From: a virus
DNA: 22,218 nucleotides
Virus record (IMG/VR): IMGVR_UViG_3300017735_000115
Location: 1 to 22,218 of that record
Strand: one strand, 5' to 3'
Position numbers and translations under genes: made by a program. Below the pieces are notes generated by a model. The model saw only the letters and a program-made list of their open reading frames with translations. It ran no database searches and was not told the DNA's origin. Every line of letters starts with the position of its first letter. The first letter of the stretch is position 1. This document shows positions 3,107-13,955 of the stretch, piece after piece.

Positions 3107-5188
3107 ATGCAAGACACAGATATTTCGGAGTCACTTACTTATGTGACAGGAGAACCTAATGTAAACCATTTGCGCCATGCTTACGAGCAAACAGTAAATG
3201 AACTAGAACCATATTTTGATTTATGTAGGGACTCCTACGATCAACGAAGAAACTATTGGGCAGGGAAAAGTCGTGACCTTCGCAAACATGGGGCTGATGC
3301 CTTTCCATGGGAAGGTGCTTCAGACATTGAGTCTCATGTTATCGATGAAAGGATATCAAGACTTGTTGCCATGCTTATGTCTTCATTGAGCAGAGCCAAT
3401 GTTTCGGCATTTCCTGTTGAAGTAAACGATATAGCTAGATCAAAAATCGTAGGTAGTTTCATGAAGTGGATGGTTAGCTCTGGTTACATAAATCGCTTTG
3501 AGAAAGAAATGGAGCTAGGGTGTAACTATTTGTTAGAGCGAGGTATCTTAATTACTCATGTTGGTTGGCAGAGAGAGGATCGTAAATTTCTACAAGAGTT
3601 AGATATTGCACAGATTGCCCAAATGTCACCAGAGATAGCTCAAGCTGTTGATGATCCAAGTAATGACCAGGCATTGGTTGCATTACTACAACAAACCTTT
3701 GAAGGAGTAACCGAAAAGAGAGGTTTAAAAGCCTTAAAGGAACTAAGGAAGAAAGGTTCTACAAAACTTCCAATAGTCCGAAGACAAGTAAATGCTCCTG
3801 AAGTAAAAACATTAGCACCTGACTTTGACTTTTTCTTACCACCATATGTTACTGATCCACAGAAAGCACCTTATTGTTTCTGGAGAAACTTCTATACTCC
3901 ACAGGAGTTAGAATTAAAAGTAACCACAGATGGGTGGGATGCAGACTTTGTAGCCGAAATGATTCAGAACTATCGTGGTGTTGATGTATTAGATATAGAA
4001 AAGCAACAAGAGGGTAGACGATCAAATCTTATACAAGATTATGGCTACGAAGCAGAGGAGTTAATTGAATTAATTTATGGATATCAGCGATTGATTGACC
4101 CAGAGGATGGTTCAGAAGGAATCTACTATACTGTGTTCCATAAACAATTTAGTGGGAACGAAGATGCTCCTGCTTTCGCAATTCACGAATTACTCAATGG
4201 ATATGAAGATTATCCTATCGTGGTCACAAAACTGTCAGAGGATTCTAAAAGATTGTATGACACTATGACTGCTCCTGATCTGCTTCGTGGTATTCAAAAC
4301 CAAGTAAAGGTAGAAAGAGATTCACGAATTGATAGAAACTCTTTGGCAACATTGCCGCCAATCATTCACCCTGTCGGACAAGCACCAACAGACTTTGGCC
4401 CTGGTAGATATATACCTTACCGAAGAAAAGGAGACTTGGACTTTGCTCCAACACCTCCACCACCTACAGGATCAATAGAAATTGAAAGAACTCTTCAGGA
4501 ACAAGCTGATAGATTGATGGGATTAGATAATACCCCAATCAGCCAATTGAAGCTACAGTTCTTGGTTAATAAATTCCTAAAGCACTCAGCAGATGTATTA
4601 AAACTAGCTTACAAGTGTTTTCAAAGATTTGGCCCTGATAGTGTATTCTTTAGGGTTACTGGTTCTCCTGATCCACAAACATTTGGCAAAGGTGATCCAA
4701 ACGAAGACTTTGATGTTACTATATCTTACGATGTATTAAACACAGACCCTGAAACTCAAGAGAAGAAACTTGCACAAATCCAAGCACTTACTGCTATGGA
4801 TCGTAATGGTCGAATAAATGTTGATAGTTTGTTAACAGTTATAGCAAATGCAGTTGATCCTGTGTTGGCCGATCAGATTCTACAACCAGTAGAAGCCGCA
4901 CAAGAACAAGTAGTCAAACAAGTTACTGACGATCTATCTAAGATTTTTGCTGGTATTGAAATGCCTGCTAGACCAAATGGCGCTCAGGTTGCAATGCAAG
5001 TAATCCAACAATATGGCTCTCAGCCAGATATTCAAGCTAGACTACAGTCAGATGAAGCATTTGCCGCTAGGATGGAAAAATATGTTGGACAATATACCTT
5101 TATGATGCAACAACAACAGAATGCACAAATCGGTCGTATTGGTACAGAGCCTGCTGCTATGGGTAGTGTTGACACTCAAAACATTTAG
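3107..5188 (+). CDS. Portal protein
   Basis: The 693-residue protein is the probable portal, the ring at one capsid vertex through which DNA enters and leaves and to which the tail attaches. Its size, its place just after the terminase and before the hydrolase, scaffold and capsid genes, and its all-alpha/beta portal-like pattern support this. The N-terminal segment FPWEGASDIESHVIDERI (about residues 66-83) resembles a conserved stretch seen in large portals of podovirus-like phages. The C-terminal part is Gln-rich (for example MMQQQQ near the end) and helical, consistent with a barrel or a disordered tail. The gene ends with TAG, one base before the next ATG. Confidence 0.88.
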   Translation: MQDTDISESLTYVTGEPNVNHLRHAYEQTVNELEPYFDLCRDSYDQRRNYWAGKSRDLRKHGADAFPWEGASDIESHVIDERISRLVAMLMSSLSRANVSAFPVEVNDIARSKIVGSFMKWMVSSGYINRFEKEMELGCNYLLERGILITHVGWQREDRKFLQELDIAQIAQMSPEIAQAVDDPSNDQALVALLQQTFEGVTEKRGLKALKELRKKGSTKLPIVRRQVNAPEVKTLAPDFDFFLPPYVTDPQKAPYCFWRNFYTPQELELKVTTDGWDADFVAEMIQNYRGVDVLDIEKQQEGRRSNLIQDYGYEAEELIELIYGYQRLIDPEDGSEGIYYTVFHKQFSGNEDAPAFAIHELLNGYEDYPIVVTKLSEDSKRLYDTMTAPDLLRGIQNQVKVERDSRIDRNSLATLPPIIHPVGQAPTDFGPGRYIPYRRKGDLDFAPTPPPPTGSIEIERTLQEQADRLMGLDNTPISQLKLQFLVNKFLKHSADVLKLAYKCFQRFGPDSVFFRVTGSPDPQTFGKGDPNEDFDVTISYDVLNTDPETQEKKLAQIQALTAMDRNGRINVDSLLTVIANAVDPVLADQILQPVEAAQEQVVKQVTDDLSKIFAGIEMPARPNGAQVAMQVIQQYGSQPDIQARLQSDEAFAARMEKYVGQYTFMMQQQQNAQIGRIGTEPAAMGSVDTQNI

Positions 5189-5189
5189 T

Positions 5190-5714
5190 ATGACTCCAGA
5201 ACAGTATAGCGCTAAGCGATCTGCTGAAATGCAGAATCAAATTGACATGGCTAACTTAACTAAGGCAGTTGCCTTGGAAGCCAGAGGAGAAGGTATGGAT
5301 GGAATGTTTGCAGTTGCTAAAAGCATACTCAACAGACATGAACTCATAAACTCAGGCGAGGTTTTGCCATCTACATATATGCCTAATAGTGTTAACAGTA
5401 AACCAACTATTAGTGATATCTTGTTTCATAAGGATCAGTATCAAGTATATGACTCAAAGAATAAAAGATTCAAAGATCAAAAAAACCCTCCAACTAAAGA
5501 AGATTTCCAAAAAGCCCAAGAAGCTATTCATTTAGCTTCAGATACCCATAGGGCAATGACATATATCTTGGATCGTAATTTACCAATGGATACTTTCGAT
5601 GGTACAGGCTTCAGAAGAAGAGATGCTAAATACGATGCTTCTCAAGATAAAGGAACATTCATGATAGGAAACCATCAATTCAACAAAGCAGGAAGACCTG
5701 AATTGGAAGAATAA
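5190..5714 (+). CDS. SleB-like cell-wall hydrolase
   Basis: The 174-residue protein has the core of the SleB (hydrolase_2) family: an N-terminal helix followed by LTKAVALEARGEG (about residues 23-35), with Glu30 in the position of the catalytic acid, then AVAKSILNR and a C-terminal region consistent with a lysozyme-like fold. I chose ATG 5190 over the upstream in-frame ATG 5121 because it begins one base after the portal stop; the longer form would overlap the portal by 68 bases. No signal peptide is present, so export would need a holin or delivery in the virion. Its place between portal and scaffold suggests either an endolysin or a virion-borne wall-piercing enzyme. No other wall-cleaving enzyme is seen in the window. 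Confidence 0.85.
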   Translation: MTPEQYSAKRSAEMQNQIDMANLTKAVALEARGEGMDGMFAVAKSILNRHELINSGEVLPSTYMPNSVNSKPTISDILFHKDQYQVYDSKNKRFKDQKNPPTKEDFQKAQEAIHLASDTHRAMTYILDRNLPMDTFDGTGFRRRDAKYDASQDKGTFMIGNHQFNKAGRPELEE

Positions 5715-7068: not shown

Positions 7069-8067
7069 ATGGCAATTTCAGATACATTCAATCCGGCTTT
7101 ACAGCCAGTTACAACCCAAGGGCCGAGTGTTTCCAATCGTGAGGATTTGACAGATGTCTTAACTATCCTTGCGCCAGAAGAAACTCCAGCTCTTTCATCT
7201 GCCAACAAACAGAAAGCAAATGCTACTTTTGTTGAGTGGACAGTCGATGGCCTAGCCGATCCCTCAACAGCAGGTATTAGCGAAGGTGCTGATGTTACAA
7301 CATTCACAGACCAATTCGCAAGCCGCGCTCGTCTTGGCAATTACATTCAGAAGTTTCGCAGAGACTTCATGGTTTCCGATTTACAGGAAGCTGTTGACTC
7401 TGTAGGGCCTGCTAAAGTTGCACAAGCTGAATCAAAAGCTATTCGTGAATTGAAAAGAGATGTTGAAGCAACAATTCTTTCAGACAATGATCGTCAAGCA
7501 GAAACAGGTGCAGCCCCTTACAAAATGCGAGGACTTGGTAAGTTCCTTGATGGTGCTAATGCTGACATCCCTGCTGATTACGAAACTCCTGCAGCATCTA
7601 TTGCTACTACAGGTTCATTAACAACAGAGACTGAGTTCAATACAATCATTCGTTCGATCTATCGTGCAAATGGTGAAGCTAACAACTTAGTTCTTATCGC
7701 TGATACATCACTTCGTAAGCAAATCGCAGACTATGCTCGCTTAGGAAACCAAACTGAAACTGTTCGTAGTGTAAACTATGATGGTGATAACTCAACAATT
7801 AAATTATCTGTTGAGATTTACCAATCAGATTTCGGTATCGTTTCTATCGTTAACATGAATCCAACAACCAACCCAGAGACAGTTTCAGGATCAACAACTA
7901 ATCACGATCGTGGTTATATGATCAACCCTGACTACTATGGTATTCACGAGCTTATCCCTATGGGATCATCTCGCCTACCTAACATGGGTGGTGGTGAAAG
8001 AGGTTTTGTTGACTGTGCATTAACACTAGGTGTTTATGCTCCAGCGGCTCATGGTATAATCAAATAA
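7069..8067 (+). CDS. Major capsid protein, SU10-like family
   Basis: The 332-residue protein forms the phage head. Its beginning (SDTFNPALQPVTTQGPSVSN), the central segment around AESKAIRELKRDVEATILSD, and the C-terminal ALTLGVYAPAAHGIIK match my memory of the SU10 major head protein family (DUF5309 type), a HK97-fold group of podoviruses and relatives. It follows the scaffold by 19 bases and precedes a decoration-like protein, the normal order. No ribosome binding site is visible before its ATG although it should be one of the most abundant products; the leader is simply A/T-rich. Confidence 0.88.
   Translation: MAISDTFNPALQPVTTQGPSVSNREDLTDVLTILAPEETPALSSANKQKANATFVEWTVDGLADPSTAGISEGADVTTFTDQFASRARLGNYIQKFRRDFMVSDLQEAVDSVGPAKVAQAESKAIRELKRDVEATILSDNDRQAETGAAPYKMRGLGKFLDGANADIPADYETPAASIATTGSLTTETEFNTIIRSIYRANGEANNLVLIADTSLRKQIADYARLGNQTETVRSVNYDGDNSTIKLSVEIYQSDFGIVSIVNMNPTTNPETVSGSTTNHDRGYMINPDYYGIHELIPMGSSRLPNMGGGERGFVDCALTLGVYAPAAHGIIK
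8052..8060 (+). promoter_or_regulatory. Candidate extended -10 element before the decoration-like gene
   Basis: TGGTATAAT lies in the last codons of the capsid gene, 26 bases before the start of the next gene and just ahead of its strong ribosome binding site. It could give extra transcription of that gene alone. No -35 box is apparent. Confidence 0.35.
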
Positions 8068-10259: not shown

Positions 10260-11221
10260 TGTCTATTACAACACAACCGGCTGTCAATGTCCTCAATGGG
10301 TCATTAGCTTGTGCTTTCAATAATGGAAGACCAACAGGCAGTAATGAGTTGATACCTAGCATTCCTGGTAATGCTTTAGATAACCCTACATTTGATGTAG
10401 TAGCATCTCCACCATTTGGAAATGCTTACAATGGTGTAGTGTATTTTAACAAGTGGTCTCACTTTGGTCAGTTGTTTACATCAGACTTTGATTTTAAAAC
10501 ATATGTAGGTAATTCATTTAATGCAAACTTTCCTGCATTTAAAGATTTGGGTGGTGGTGCATTAGACGATCAAAGAAAGTGTGTTAAGCTATATGGTGCA
10601 GGAACAAACTTTCCTGACAATACTTCTAATACAAATAATAATAATTCTAGAAGTTTTCCACTAAGTGGTATGTCCACTACTAATACTCCAGGAGCTTATC
10701 CAGATAGTGGTACTTGGACAAGACAAGGATGGTCACAGGGTGTAGCAGTACCAGATAGTGCTACTACAGTTACATTTGGTGCATATGTTAGGATACCTAG
10801 TGATGACCAACTTAGAGATTTAAATGTAGTAGGTTGCTATATTAATCAAAATACAGGTAGTAACAATTATGTAAATGCTATGTACATTAAAGAAGAAGGT
10901 CAGCTATTTAATTTTGCAACAGGTGCTTTAAATAAATTTCATTGGTCTGGATTAACCTCTAGCTTAGATTCAAATGGCAATACTGAATATGGTATAAGAA
11001 ACAATAATGTTTGTACAGTAGAAAGCATACAACCTTACTTTCAATCAAATTTTGCACAATTTAATAAGATAGAAAAAACAGTTACCCTTCAATCAGGAAC
11101 AAGTAGAAGGCTTACATTTGAAATGTTCTTTGGAGAAAATCAAAGTTATTTAACACCTGCAAGCACAGGAACACCTAGTGGTTCAGGACTTTTTTATAAT
11201 CCTTTTGTATTATATTCATAA
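10259..11221 (+). CDS. Putative virion surface protein with a jelly-roll-like pattern
   Basis: The 320-residue protein is rich in Asn, Ser, Thr, Gly and aromatic residues, with a long Asn tract near residues 123-130. The segments NPTFDVVASPPFGNAY, CVKLYGAG and GWSQGVAVPDSATTVTFGAY resemble the strand pattern of carbohydrate-binding jelly-roll modules, in which a ligand-binding sandwich starts with a similar NP-F motif. It could be a sugar-binding head or tail appendage. I cannot name a family with confidence. It sits between small virion genes and the lysis genes, with one-base TAATG overlaps on both sides. Confidence 0.6.
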   Translation: MSITTQPAVNVLNGSLACAFNNGRPTGSNELIPSIPGNALDNPTFDVVASPPFGNAYNGVVYFNKWSHFGQLFTSDFDFKTYVGNSFNANFPAFKDLGGGALDDQRKCVKLYGAGTNFPDNTSNTNNNNSRSFPLSGMSTTNTPGAYPDSGTWTRQGWSQGVAVPDSATTVTFGAYVRIPSDDQLRDLNVVGCYINQNTGSNNYVNAMYIKEEGQLFNFATGALNKFHWSGLTSSLDSNGNTEYGIRNNNVCTVESIQPYFQSNFAQFNKIEKTVTLQSGTSRRLTFEMFFGENQSYLTPASTGTPSGSGLFYNPFVLYS

Positions 11222-11379
11222 TGGAGGAAACACTACAGAGATTATCAGTAGGAGTATTTGGTTGGATCGCAACTGATACACTACAAGACATTGATTTAAT
11301 AATGGGGATAATGTCCAAGGGTGTTATAATAGGGTTAACCACTTTATCAATACTTAAACTAATACAAGAACTAAGATGA
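11221..11379 (+). CDS. Small membrane protein, 52 residues, next to the holin
   Basis: The gene begins on the last base of the previous stop (TAATG) and ends in ATGA, overlapping the next start. The product has an amphipathic N-terminal half and a hydrophobic segment at about residues 34-48 (KGVIIGLTTLSILKLI) followed by a short charged tail. Its size, hydrophobicity and place next to a likely holin suggest a lysis accessory such as a second holin or antiholin; that is inference. Clean junctions on both sides support it as a real gene. Confidence 0.65.
   Translation: MEETLQRLSVGVFGWIATDTLQDIDLIMGIMSKGVIIGLTTLSILKLIQELR
11322..11330 (+). promoter_or_regulatory. Candidate extended -10 element before the holin gene
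   Basis: TGTTATAAT is an exact match, identical to the element at 5930-5938. It lies inside the small membrane-protein gene, 45 bases before the holin ATG. It could time lysis gene expression. Confidence 0.35.
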
Positions 11380-11780
11380 CAACAGAACTTATAGCAATGC
11401 TCGGAGGAGGTGCAAGTGGCTTTCTCTTTAAATTAATTGGTACAATGGTAACTTCCCAGCAAGCCAATGTTGATAACTTAATTAAGAAACAGAAAGCATC
11501 AGACGAAAGTGCAGATGCCGCGGCAAAGAGAACCGGTGATGGTGGTGCTATTGTTCGTAGAATTATTGTAGTAACAGTTTTATTCGGAGTAATCATAGCT
11601 CCATTCATCCTAGCTCATAGTAACGAAGGGGTCACAGTAGCTAATGAATACAGTAAATGGTTTGGCTTAATTAAAGGCACTAGCTACCAAACATTGCATG
11701 GGTATGTTATACTACCAGAGATAAGACAAACAGTATTGGCTATCGTAGGATTCTACTTTGGCTCATCATCAGTTAAATAA
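11376..11780 (+). CDS. Probable holin
   Basis: The 134-residue protein likely forms the membrane lesion that releases the wall hydrolase. Hydrophobic segments appear at about residues 5-26 (weaker, Gly-rich), 63-80 (IIVVTVLFGVIIAPFILA) and 110-129, separated by a charged linker with KKQKASDESADAAAKR. Three segments and this length fit the three-membrane-span holin type described in gene transfer agents and marine phages. The start overlaps the preceding stop in ATGA. The wall hydrolase itself is encoded about 6 kb upstream, so the lysis genes are split. Confidence 0.7.
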   Translation: MTTELIAMLGGGASGFLFKLIGTMVTSQQANVDNLIKKQKASDESADAAAKRTGDGGAIVRRIIVVTVLFGVIIAPFILAHSNEGVTVANEYSKWFGLIKGTSYQTLHGYVILPEIRQTVLAIVGFYFGSSSVK

Positions 11781-11802: not shown

Positions 11803-12594
11803 ATGGATAAGAAAAGAGCAAAGCAAGAACTGCGAACTCTCAGGGATTCAATCTCTGAAGTGCTTGGCGAAAAGAATAATCAAGCTGATTCCTCAGACAT
11901 TAAGGAAAGTATTGAGCAAGCTCAAGAGTCTGCTAGAGCAGGGGCTAAAGCTCTTAAAAAATCTCTTATAGAGAGGATCAAGGAATTACCAGTTGTAACA
12001 CAAGTATCTCAGCTAGGGGCTGCAGGTACTGTTGCTGTGTCTACTGCGGCAGTAACTCAAGTAGATATTGCCCAAGATCGTACAGAGATATTTGTAGCAG
12101 AAGTGGCCCAGGATGTCATTGAAGAAAGATTTGAAGTCCCAATGTTTATTGATAACTTTGTAGACTTTGCTACTTTAAATGATTGGGGACAAAAGGTTAT
12201 TACCGAGAAGATTTCTGAGGCACAGGCTTTCGTAGCCGAGGTTTCCGAACCACCACAGACTTCTCAATCATCTTCTGCTCCTGAGGACACCAAACCTGCA
12301 CCCTCTGCTTCTTCACAAGATAGTTCTTCCGATAAGTCTTCTGAGCCGAAAGATAGTAGCACAGAGCAAAAATCAGAAGAAAAGGAATCCAAATCAGATA
12401 AAACATCCTCAGAGACTACTGAAGAGCCTAAGGAGGTCAAGTCTAATGATGATACTAAGGAAGAAACAAAAGAGCCTACAGAGCAATCTGAGGCTAAATC
12501 TGATGCCATAGAACAGGTAAACACACCATACGAACCAATGGATGATGATATAAAGCCTCACACAGACACAAGACCAGTATCCCCAATATTATGA
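11803..12594 (+). CDS. Membrane-linked protein with long acidic/Ser low-complexity tail
   Basis: The 263-residue protein has a charged helical N-terminus (1-60), a moderately hydrophobic Ala/Val/Gly segment at about residues 63-90 (VVTQVSQLGAAGTVAVSTAA) that may span or enter a membrane, a short folded-looking stretch (about 91-145), and a long tail (about 148-240) made almost only of Ser, Glu, Lys, Asp, Pro and Thr. Such a tail is probably disordered and could span the periplasm or wall, as spanin-like or anchor proteins do; this is inference. A stop codon lies immediately before the ATG in frame, so the start is fixed or later. It overlaps the next gene in ATGA. An alternative out-of-frame start at 11783 is discussed in the findings. 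Confidence 0.7.
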   Translation: MDKKRAKQELRTLRDSISEVLGEKNNQADSSDIKESIEQAQESARAGAKALKKSLIERIKELPVVTQVSQLGAAGTVAVSTAAVTQVDIAQDRTEIFVAEVAQDVIEERFEVPMFIDNFVDFATLNDWGQKVITEKISEAQAFVAEVSEPPQTSQSSSAPEDTKPAPSASSQDSSSDKSSEPKDSSTEQKSEEKESKSDKTSSETTEEPKEVKSNDDTKEETKEPTEQSEAKSDAIEQVNTPYEPMDDDIKPHTDTRPVSPIL

Positions 12595-12755
12595 TAGAGT
12601 ACATTTTTAGTAACTACAAAGACGATCTGCTCGCTATGGCATTTGCATACATTGGTATAATATCTATTATAATGATGTTCTTACCAAAAAATAATATATT
12701 GGTAAAATCATTCAAGAGCATCGCATCAATCTTTACATCCCTTTTCAAAAAATGA
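12591..12755 (+). CDS. Small single-span membrane protein, 54 residues
   Basis: The product begins MIEYIFSNYKDDL, has one hydrophobic span at about residues 13-31 (LLAMAFAYIGIISIIMMFL), and ends in a basic amphipathic stretch (VKSFKSIASIFTSLFKK). The gene overlaps both neighbours in ATGA junctions (12591-12594 and 12752-12755), strong evidence that it is real and translated in step with them. Its role is unknown; it could be a membrane-active lysis accessory or a partner of the PEP-CTERM-like protein encoded next. Confidence 0.75.
   Translation: MIEYIFSNYKDDLLAMAFAYIGIISIIMMFLPKNNILVKSFKSIASIFTSLFKK
12653..12661 (+). promoter_or_regulatory. Candidate extended -10 element
   Basis: TGGTATAAT lies inside the 54-residue membrane-protein gene, about 90 bases before the PEP-CTERM-like gene. 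It matches TGn-TATAAT exactly but is set in codons for hydrophobic residues, which are AT-rich, so it may be fortuitous. Confidence 0.25.
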
Positions 12756-13042
12756 GCCACGAATTTTCAGAACTCGATATCAACAATGACTCCGACTATG
12801 GTTGGGGCGATAGCATTACTTCAACTGATTACAATTACTTTTATGTACCATCTATACCGGAGTGGGCATATAGTGAATTTGATGGATTATTATACGAAGG
12901 AACTCAGTACAATTGGAGTGAAGTAGATTATAGGCTTTCAGTTGATTACAATAGTGTACCTGAACCAGCAGATGCAGGATTCATTGGTGCAGTATTAGTA
13001 GGAATTTTTGTAGCATTTACTTATTTTAAAACAAAAAAATAA
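12752..13042 (+). CDS. Phage protein with a PEP-CTERM-like C-terminal sorting signal
   Basis: The 96-residue protein has an acidic, Tyr/Trp-rich body (residues 1-68) and a C-terminus with all three parts of a PEP-CTERM tail: VPEP at 69-72, a hydrophobic span at about 77-92 (FIGAVLVGIFVAFTYF), and a basic end KTKK at 93-96. In bacteria with exosortase, this tripartite signal directs secreted proteins to processing and display in the extracellular matrix. Those substrates normally also carry an N-terminal signal peptide, which is absent here, so the product may instead be a tail-anchored membrane protein or a mimic. The gene starts in an ATGA overlap with the preceding membrane-protein gene. 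I know of no phage family for it. Confidence 0.75.
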   Translation: MSHEFSELDINNDSDYGWGDSITSTDYNYFYVPSIPEWAYSEFDGLLYEGTQYNWSEVDYRLSVDYNSVPEPADAGFIGAVLVGIFVAFTYFKTKK

Positions 13043-13234: not shown

Positions 13235-13398
13235 TGGGTAAGTTATGTGCTAGAGGTAAGGCAGCCGCCAAAAGAAAGTATGATGTATATCCATCAGCTT
13301 ATGCTAACTCATATGCAGTTCGTGTATGTAAGGGGCAAGTTAAAGGCCCTGATGGCAAGAAGAAGACTGCTAGTGGATATAAGAGAAAGAAAGTATGA
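13234..13398 (+). CDS. Basic mini-protein of the YPSAYAN...VCKG type, GTG start
   Basis: The 54-residue product reads, in parts, GKLCARGKAAAKRKYDVYPS, AYANSYAVRVCKG and GPDGKKKTASGYKRKKV. The CxRGKAAAKRK, YPSAYAN and VCKG elements form a pattern shared by small proteins of large phages and giant viruses. It has two cysteines and a strong positive charge. The start is a GTG that shares one base with the TAG of the previous gene, and the stop overlaps the next ATG (ATGA). The ATG at 13247 is in another frame and is not the start. Function unknown; DNA or capsid association is plausible. Confidence 0.75.
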   Translation: MGKLCARGKAAAKRKYDVYPSAYANSYAVRVCKGQVKGPDGKKKTASGYKRKKV

Positions 13399-13631
13399 GC
13401 CTCAAAAGATGGCATCAAGAGAAATGGGTAGATATAAAAACTGGCAAGCCTTGTGGTAGAAAGAATATCGAGAAGAGCAAGCGAGGATACCCTGCCTGTA
13501 GACCATCTAAAAGAGTTAGCTCAAAAACTCCAAAGACTCAATCAGAGATGTCTTCGGCAGAGAAAGCAAAGTTCAAAAGAACAAAGACAAGTAGTAAAAG
13601 AATTTCATATCAACACAAAAGAAAGAAGTAA
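13395..13631 (+). CDS. Basic protein of the PCGR...CRPSKRVSSKTPKT type (DUF5872-like)
   Basis: The 78-residue protein has EKWVDIKTGKPCGRK near residues 9-23 and YPACRPSKRVSSKTPKT near 32-48, followed by a Ser/Lys-rich tail ending YQHKRKK. I recall this arrangement as the family labelled DUF5872, found in phages and large eukaryotic viruses, though I cannot check the number. Two cysteines and many lysines suggest a small nucleic-acid-binding or packaged protein. The gene overlaps the preceding one in ATGA and the following one in TAATG. Confidence 0.75.
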   Translation: MSLKRWHQEKWVDIKTGKPCGRKNIEKSKRGYPACRPSKRVSSKTPKTQSEMSSAEKAKFKRTKTSSKRISYQHKRKK

Positions 13632-13741
13632 TGGGTAAGGGGATGCAACCAAAGGCTGGATACAATCAAAAATTGTATGAACAGAATTACGATGCAATCT
13701 TTCGTAAAAAGAAAAAGCATGAGAAAAGAACACAAAAGTAA
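13631..13741 (+). CDS. Basic mini-protein of the MGKGxxPKxGYN type, 36 residues
   Basis: The product begins MGKGMQPKAGYNQKLYEQNY, continues DAIFRKKKKHEKRTQK, and has no cysteine. The MGKG...GYN...Y..NYDAIF pattern is, as I recall, common in small proteins of cyanophages and other marine phages. It starts on the last base of the previous stop and its 3' end overlaps the next gene by 23 bases. Function unknown. Confidence 0.7.
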   Translation: MGKGMQPKAGYNQKLYEQNYDAIFRKKKKHEKRTQK

Positions 13742-13955
13742 AAAAGGTGGACTAACTGCCGAAGGCAGAGCTTACTTTAAAAGAAAGACTGGTGCTAATT
13801 TAAAGCCACCGGTTACTGAGTCTAATCCTACTGGTAAAAAGAAAGCCAGAAAGAAATCATTTTGTGCTAGAATGTCTGGTGTTAAAGGGCCAATGAAAGA
13901 CAAGAAAGGAAGACCCACAAGAAAGGCATTAGCCCTTCGTAGATGGAAATGCTAA
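13719..13955 (+). CDS. Basic Cys-containing protein resembling DUF6321
   Basis: The 78-residue product contains GGLTAEGRAYFKRKTGANLK, PPVTESNPTGKKKARKKSFC and RPTRKALALRRWKC, the pattern I associate with DUF6321 proteins of phages and other viruses. I chose ATG 13719 because the recognisable family sequence begins there; an in-frame ATG at 13677 would add 14 residues encoded inside the previous gene and unlike the family. The stop is directly followed by the ATG of the large tail gene with no gap. Its two cysteines and heavy positive charge match its neighbours in the cassette. Confidence 0.75.
   Translation: MRKEHKSKKGGLTAEGRAYFKRKTGANLKPPVTESNPTGKKKARKKSFCARMSGVKGPMKDKKGRPTRKALALRRWKC

Follow-up and report, generated by a model that had tools for sequence, protein, structure and literature searches.

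The superinfection-exclusion lipoproteins Llp of phage T5 and Ltp of TP-J34 are phage surface proteins that borrow a host sorting route, and SasX is a prophage-encoded LPXTG surface protein. A further sorting route is that of the PEP-CTERM proteins and exosortase, whose role in most bacteria is, to our knowledge, open. Here we describe a candidate phage counterpart of this last route: a 96-amino-acid (aa) protein with a PEP-CTERM-like C-terminus, encoded in the virus contig IMGVR_UViG_3300017735_000115. The whole stretch analysed (22218 bases, 38% GC) is called the window. From sequence comparison we lean towards the view that the protein belongs to an accessory phage cassette that uses host exosortase sorting, its tail being a PEP-CTERM-type signal, to alter the surface of the infected cell. 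Exosortase was discovered via comparative genomics; the same report holds that every PEP-CTERM protein carries a signal peptide and that the domain can be a suffix on some members of a family only (PMC3237569).

RESULTS

C-terminal tail of the window protein

The open reading frame (ORF) starts with ATG and overlaps the end of an upstream 54-aa ORF by 4 bases. The protein and its parts are as follows.

12752..13042, + strand: 96-aa PEP-CTERM-like phage membrane protein, short type, without signal peptide (ORF; related loci)
12752..12955, + strand: acidic N-terminal part (N-part), residues 1–68, 1 K/R and 14 D/E, probably outside the membrane (residue counts)
12956..12967, + strand: VPEP codons, residues 69–72 ([VI]PE in 63/63 related loci)
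12974..13033, + strand: C-terminal hydrophobic helix, residues 75–94 (AlphaFold2 helix)
13028..13039, + strand: basic end KTKK (sequence)

The C-terminus reads ...YNS-VPEP-ADAGFIGAVLVGIFVAFTYF-KTKK. Pro-Glu-Pro near the C-terminus and, following it, a span with a basic cluster at the extreme end are both present, as is the order VPEP, hydrophobic span and KTKK that an earlier reading of the letters without database searches (the sequence-only reading) had claimed for this ORF. AlphaFold2 modelled residues 75–94 as a helix, with a mean predicted local distance difference test (pLDDT) score of 85 for residues 81–90; the whole model averaged 58 and is of low confidence, its C-terminal helix alone being usable. 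The sole NCBIfam match of the protein was PepA (E 0.035, 13.9 bits vs a cut-off of 80), and a sequence search of solved structures with the short type returned nothing significant. The window tail keeps the tripartite form, in a divergent (worn) version of PEP-CTERM.

Conservation of the motif among relatives

A first search for relatives gave 43 loci, all of which had VPEP; its patterns included DYNSVPEP and were thus biased towards the motif. To control for this bias the search was repeated with residues 1–68 alone and then, separately, with the upstream 54-aa gene (tm54) alone. The motif-free search with residues 1–68 found 63 loci encoding 40 unique proteins, with [VI]PE in 63/63 and PEP in 60/63 loci. 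VPEP was present in 50 of these loci and IPEP in 10, and IPEQ, IPEA and IPES were each found once. Conservation of VPEP among homologues, a point raised by the sequence-only reading, was therefore seen with a query devoid of the motif. The linker from a conserved YRL/FRL to the motif varies (SVDYNS, SADLA, DVPYLS, QVEYDV and others), whereas [VI]PE is constant.

Results with tm54 as query refer to the best 80 of 105 loci. The gene after tm54 ends in [VI]PE-x and a span in 79 of the 80; at the remaining locus, L298, the next gene is interrupted by an ambiguous base. Among the 53 unique next-gene proteins we counted VPEP in 36, IPEP in nine, IPEM in four, IPES in two and IPEQ in one, with one unreadable. 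[VI]PE thus occurs in 52/52 unique readable tails, and at least two K/R lie within the last 12 residues of all 53 proteins. Among named phages, a search with the PEP protein gave two insignificant matches (E 4 and 9). In genome contigs, 92 stretches fitted a pattern and none was confirmed as a relative.

Scores against PEP-CTERM models

The curated cut-offs are 20.7 bits for PF07589 and 16 bits for TIGR02595. Relatives L076 (21.8 bits) and L043 (22.3 bits) were above the first, and L076 (21.4 bits), L072 (17.5 bits) and L043 (17.3 bits) above the second, L043 being a 42-aa fragment at a contig end. For 38 family members at E ≤ 1, 24 match PF07589 and 15 match TIGR02595. The claim of a PEP-CTERM-type signal is supported at the family level, where some relatives exceed the curated cut-offs; the window copy falls below them.

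We also scored the proteins with hidden Markov models (HMMs) made from bacterial tails only: 39 from the Opitutae order of G004, a metagenome-assembled genome (MAG), 26 gamma- and 31 alphaproteobacterial. Taxon labels throughout follow record titles and general knowledge, and 'Opitutae' is shorthand for the order and family of G004. The Opitutae-order HMM gave the highest score for 37/41 unique phage proteins (the exceptions being L022, L055, L071 and L027), with many margins small. L076 scored 34.8 bits with this model vs 11.8 with the gamma and 14.4 with the alpha HMM, and the window protein scored 7.7, 2.6 and 6.5 bits, respectively. Shuffled-tail controls reached at most 3.3 bits with the Opitutae-order HMM (n = 820) vs 7.7 for the window, and the best score among 1067 further six-frame ORFs from the phage loci was 4.6 bits (family member L072 set aside). 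In pairwise scoring, for which the tail selection favours Opitutae, 40/51 unique phage tails were nearest an Opitutae tail and 11, the window's included, were not. The canonical phage tails are closely similar to those of Opitutae bacteria. Taken as a family, the signal is well supported by these comparisons as being of the PEP-CTERM type.

Short and long types with modular tails

The 53 unique proteins encoded after tm54 comprise 45 of the short type, nearly all starting with MSH, and eight of a long type (L321, L323, L327, L337, L338, L341, L342 and L346). The latter has a hydrophobic signal-peptide-like start and ~150 extra residues ahead of the same kind of tail. L321 and L327 are sister phages of the window, since a neighbouring 134-aa membrane protein (tm134) is 92% identical to the window's; their tails align with that of the window.

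Scans for [VI]PEP[ST]-TYA and -FYG patterns returned 27 and 14 stretches, respectively, and several of the first set were other phage proteins. L259, L265, L267, L268, L270 and L273 encode a long-type PEPSTYA protein, either immediately behind a tm54 relative or separated from it by one small gene; for L268 and L270 this placement comes from coordinates only. No window homologue was found on these six stretches beyond tm54 and, in L267 and L268, a weak homologue of the gene preceding tm54 (dis263). With so few homologues they are, so far as seen, unrelated phages; L273 encodes a PhoH-like protein. Searches of named phages with the long type and its tm54 relative found no relatives.

The N-part and the tail were compared in nine hand-picked pairs. 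DNA identities (N-part/tail) were 99%/52% for L002 v L010, 91%/52% for L003 v L011 and 60%/90% for L016 v L037. Spans are exchanged while the N-part is kept, and the break is at VPEP.

The long-type model (mean pLDDT 74) contains a beta-sandwich closest to jelly-roll domains. The match to 3afg_B had Z 9.1 and a root-mean-square deviation (rmsd) of 2.8 over 103 residues. VIA ranked jelly-roll domains of a subtilisin-like protease and collagenases (Z 7.8–9.1, rmsd 2.4–3.0) level with calpain C2-like domains (Z 8.3–8.7), and other beta-sandwiches followed closely. Foldseek found no PDB match at E ≤ 0.001, and comparison of the long type with solved structures by sequence gave nothing significant. 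We take these model-based matches as suggesting a fold class only, and no function.

In L265 (1-759, − strand) and L267 (4693-5847) the PEP-CTERM gene is followed directly by one whose product (384 aa in L267) has a signal-peptide-like start and looks, by eye, like an outer-membrane beta-barrel; it had no Pfam hit. Another small phage protein, with a hydrophobic signal-peptide-like start, an Asp-rich stretch and a VPEPSTYALFAG tail, is encoded on L247, L248, L254, L256 and L271. These are IMG/VR contigs of 29.7–73.2 kb, and no homologue of a window gene was found on the stretches examined.

Signal peptide and membrane orientation

The presence of a signal peptide was judged by hydropathy. The top 11-residue value within the first 40 residues was 0.21 for the window protein, at most 1.25 for the 45 unique short-type proteins and 1.81–2.83 for the eight long-type proteins. 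The lack of an N-terminal signal peptide, already remarked on in the sequence-only reading, thus extends from the window protein to its short-type relatives. The N-part of 44 unique members contains 1–5 K/R and 10–20 D/E. An acidic, K/R-poor N-terminal part is the pattern that permits N-tail translocation, e.g. in ProW. A tail-anchored protein (N-in, C-out) had been suggested earlier; the acidic N-part and the long-type relatives point instead to N-out, C-in. Given that long-type proteins can fill this slot with a tail of the same kind, the short type would most simply be N-out, C-in as well, as in a true exosortase substrate.

Cassette and genomic setting

The neighbouring genes are as follows. 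P8625 is a Verrucomicrobia phage; C75C1 is also a phage.

11803..12594, + strand: dis263, acidic protein of 263 aa and low complexity that has a single weak hydrophobic segment, first cassette gene (homologues upstream of tm54)
12591..12755, + strand: tm54, 54-aa single-span membrane protein, coupled partner gene (relatives in 91/95 records examined)
11221..11379, + strand: tm52, 52-aa membrane protein, holin-like by eye, neighbour outside the cassette (relatives in 57/95 records)
11376..11780, + strand: tm134, 134-aa membrane protein, neighbour (P8625 51%, C75C1 54%)

The ORF sits in a tailed-phage structural block that includes two ORFs with PHROG matches, one terminase-like (TerL, 1048-2706) and one for the major head protein (7069-8067). 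Phage C75C1 has the nearest counterpart of each (75% and 67%, respectively). All 69 loci that extend 600 bases or more upstream of tm54 have a dis263 homologue there, and the 4-base overlap between tm54 and the next gene is repeated in 74/80 loci (best 80 of 105). In L360 the cassette genes lie between tm52 and tm134 rather than after tm134. This difference in gene order suggests that the cassette moves as a unit; dis263, tm54 and the PEP protein thus seem to move together. A tblastn comparison of C75C1 with the three genes of the cassette gave no match at E ≤ 0.01, from which we take the cassette to be of an accessory nature. In P8625 (bases 14000-32894) the tail pattern occurred only in one 100-codon minus-strand open frame, opposite to the listed genes.

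The tm134 gene is common to P8625, C75C1 and MAG contigs, and a small membrane gene precedes it in those as well; tm52 itself was not matched by tblastn in either P8625 or C75C1. At 13395-13955 the window encodes small basic proteins that match DUF5872 (E 5.5e-13) and DUF6321 (E 2.2e-29), and relatives have them too. A cell-wall hydrolase-like ORF (5121-5714; PF07486, 25.2 bits, cut-off 27) overlaps the end of a 693-aa ORF.

Host and exosortase

P8625 is a lytic siphovirus that infects a marine strain of Opitutae, for which Coraliomargarita akajimensis is the relative named (PMC4642752). One contig of G004, which was selected via its phage, carries a tm134 relative (49%); a second, 10.1 kb long, has relatives of TerL (64%), the 693-aa ORF (68%) and the head protein (62%) and ends before the cassette. 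Two G004 contigs, C78 (L171) and C43 (L170), are one P8625-like and one of the window's phage clade. TerL relatives were found in 6/384 Verrucomicrobiia (5/383 without G004, those five being distant) and 0/385 Alphaproteobacteria. The relative in G025 looks integrated, as it is part of a contig of 3.75 Mb on which four other window genes also have distant relatives. Near distant prophage-like loci the tail pattern was matched by a host-like tail in L179 and by a single frame in L184; neither was related, and both were rejected. L096 (Rhodobacteraceae MAG) and L097 (Sneathiella MAG) carry a tm134 relative at 69% and had no cassette homologue.

No exosortase was found in the window record. The exosortase model matches 43/43 genomes of G004's family and also matched G003 (Sneathiella). 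The sequence-only reading took the motif as a hint that the host has exosortase; this agrees with the favoured host family, and the MAGs with related contigs include both kinds. PF07589 matched 35/52 genomes of G004's order, 22/56 of G005's order and 12/115 Alphaproteobacteria. A long-type profile matched 25/132 genomes, G004's order being the sole lineage scanned, and the matches inspected, from the best, had PEP-CTERM-type tails; a single-protein search of the 132 genomes with the long type gave no match. A tail of G236, in G004's family (GC about 36–38% in the pieces read), VPEPSTYALIAGFAAFLFVAIRRRK, is identical at 17/25 positions to the tail of phage L259, IPEPSTYALLAGFSVFMYVAIRKRN. A bacterial tail of this family (L364, from G015) has VPET for VPEP, so hosts also vary the second proline.

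Protospacers were discarded as a means of calling the host: 29/384 Verrucomicrobiia matched (E ≤ 0.1), and all but G004 were short and weak and were taken as chance. Within G004's family two of the 43 genomes matched (G004, and G054 with one 34-base match). An Opitutae host is likely, although not proven.

DISCUSSION

The reading that we prefer, by a small measure, is that the cassette employs the exosortase of its host. The C-terminus would be a sorting signal acquired from, or fitted to, host PEP-CTERM tails. The short acidic N-part would pass the inner membrane without a signal peptide and the span would halt in the membrane, leaving KTKK in the cytoplasm and [V/I]PE at the outer face, within reach of host exosortase. 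In sister phages this slot is taken by a long-type protein, which combines a signal-peptide-like start with a jelly-roll-like outer domain and ends in a similar tail. The likeliest purpose would be to alter the surface of the infected cell by setting a phage protein on its envelope, e.g. against a second phage. Such placement fits the position in the structural block, the accessory nature of the cassette, the exchangeable outer domains and the outer-face motif. The sequence, its conservation and modularity, the gene linkage, the likeness to bacterial tails and the exosortase of the favoured host family are observed; orientation, exosortase cleavage, host and purpose are all things that we infer, and with modest confidence we favour surface change or superinfection exclusion over a decoy, a plain anchor or lysis.

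A broader form of this proposal is put forward more tentatively. Opitutae phages of at least two unrelated genome types might share a mobile dis–tm54–PEP cassette that displays exchangeable outer domains via exosortase, the short type by N-tail translocation with tm54 as a dedicated helper. A class of exosortase substrates lacking a signal peptide was not met in the literature searched, as far as its texts were available.

Several observations weigh against exosortase sorting. The window protein had no match to Pfam PF07589 or TIGR02595, and in pairwise scoring its tail did better with an alphaproteobacterial tail (54) than with one from Opitutae (45). The short type has no signal peptide, contrary to the rule given in PMC3237569. 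The second proline is lost (IPEM, IPES, IPEQ) in 7/52 unique readable tails, with IPEM in 4/19 unique tails of the window's x-D-x-G kind; L093 and L094, carrying IPEA and IPES, scored just −0.3 with the bacterial-tail HMMs. Five relatives (L015, L030, L032, L033 and L055) have ~26–36 residues beyond the span. With respect to the host, an 8-kb contig of a Rickettsiales MAG (L095), which ends 46 bases after its tm134 relative, has a head protein (65%) and tm134 (69%) as near as those of G004. Exosortase was matched in G004 and G003 but not in G001 (Rickettsiales), G002 (Rhodobacteraceae) or G005 (Porticoccaceae), i.e. 3/5 MAGs with a tm134 relative gave no match; misbinning of MAG contigs is possible in either direction.

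Some of these points bear on a distinct reading that has a real, if lesser, chance of being correct, in which the tail is a plain membrane anchor of PEP-CTERM descent. The tail of the window's subgroup (x-D-x-G...VAFxYFK), which of all subgroups resembles known PEP-CTERM least, would then go uncut and hold the N-part in the inner membrane. It would account for a window copy below the curated models, for IPEM, IPEA and IPES, and for the long cytoplasmic tails of the five relatives, which are of other span kinds. However, it sits poorly with the retention of [VI]PE in every unique readable tail and with a window copy whose score with the bacterial HMM still exceeds those of the shuffled tails and control ORFs. 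Homologues that keep the span and lose PEP had been named at the outset as counter-evidence to a sorting signal. A minority, the 7/52 tails together with L093 and L094, is of this kind, but the main trend among relatives is the opposite, in that the span changes and [VI]PE stays. The window's own tail may now be a plain anchor, and whether this copy is processed by exosortase we judge to be evenly balanced.

We consider it unlikely that the short protein is an exosortase decoy that competes with host substrates or jams the enzyme and so blocks host surface sorting. Its small size, its coupling to another small membrane gene and the little outer domain of the short type would suit such a role, but the long type carries alignable beta-sandwich cargo that a mere decoy would not need. 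Similarly improbable is a lysis or envelope-disruption set (spanin-like) in which the products of all three cassette genes would span the envelope at a late stage of infection. The cassette does adjoin the holin-like pair tm52 and tm134 in the window and in many relatives; C75C1, however, has the tm134 gene without cassette homologues, neither tm52 nor tm134 had a homologue on the L265 and L267 stretches examined, and no spanin family was among the library hits. A chance likeness of an ordinary C-terminal span to PEP-CTERM, with which a window copy without a significant library hit would agree, is very improbable given that the motif is conserved across the family, that relatives score with curated models, that the tails are modular and that the genes are linked, and a chance motif was discarded on the conservation, the tm54-only search and the shuffled and ORF controls.

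If exosortase sorting is indeed used, a cassette that keeps the motif while spans and outer domains are swapped would be a natural genetic probe of exosortase recognition. Phages would exploit the exosortase route as others do lipoprotein sorting, and the cassette could flag phages of exosortase-bearing hosts.

Comparison with known systems

No phage PEP-CTERM system was found in the literature, including the available parts of PMC11003980, PMC12642866 and PMC4886054, with few subscription papers covered. For hot-spring viruses, one of these reports lists transferred cellular proteins that include 13 TIGR03118-family members bearing a putative exosortase-interaction domain (PMC11003980), so single phage-borne cases may already be in print. 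A literature search found no publication on C75C1. This phage has TerL (75%), the major head protein (67%) and other structural genes in common with the window, whereas the cassette was not matched; P8625 has the 134-aa neighbour (51%).

The PEP-CTERM (PF07589, TIGR02595) and exosortase (PF09721) system resembles the present proteins in the extreme C-terminal position of motif, span and basic end. It differs in that here the signal is phage-carried, the short type has no signal peptide and the window copy scores below the models. T5 Llp and TP-J34 Ltp embody the same idea, a host sorting signal that puts a phage protein on the envelope, but they use a lipobox, whereas the present proteins would use PEP-CTERM and their exclusion role is putative. 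SasX likewise has a C-terminal sorting signal of motif, span and basic end on a phage gene; it belongs to a Gram-positive sortase system and a temperate phage, whereas the signal of the present proteins is of the PEP-CTERM type.
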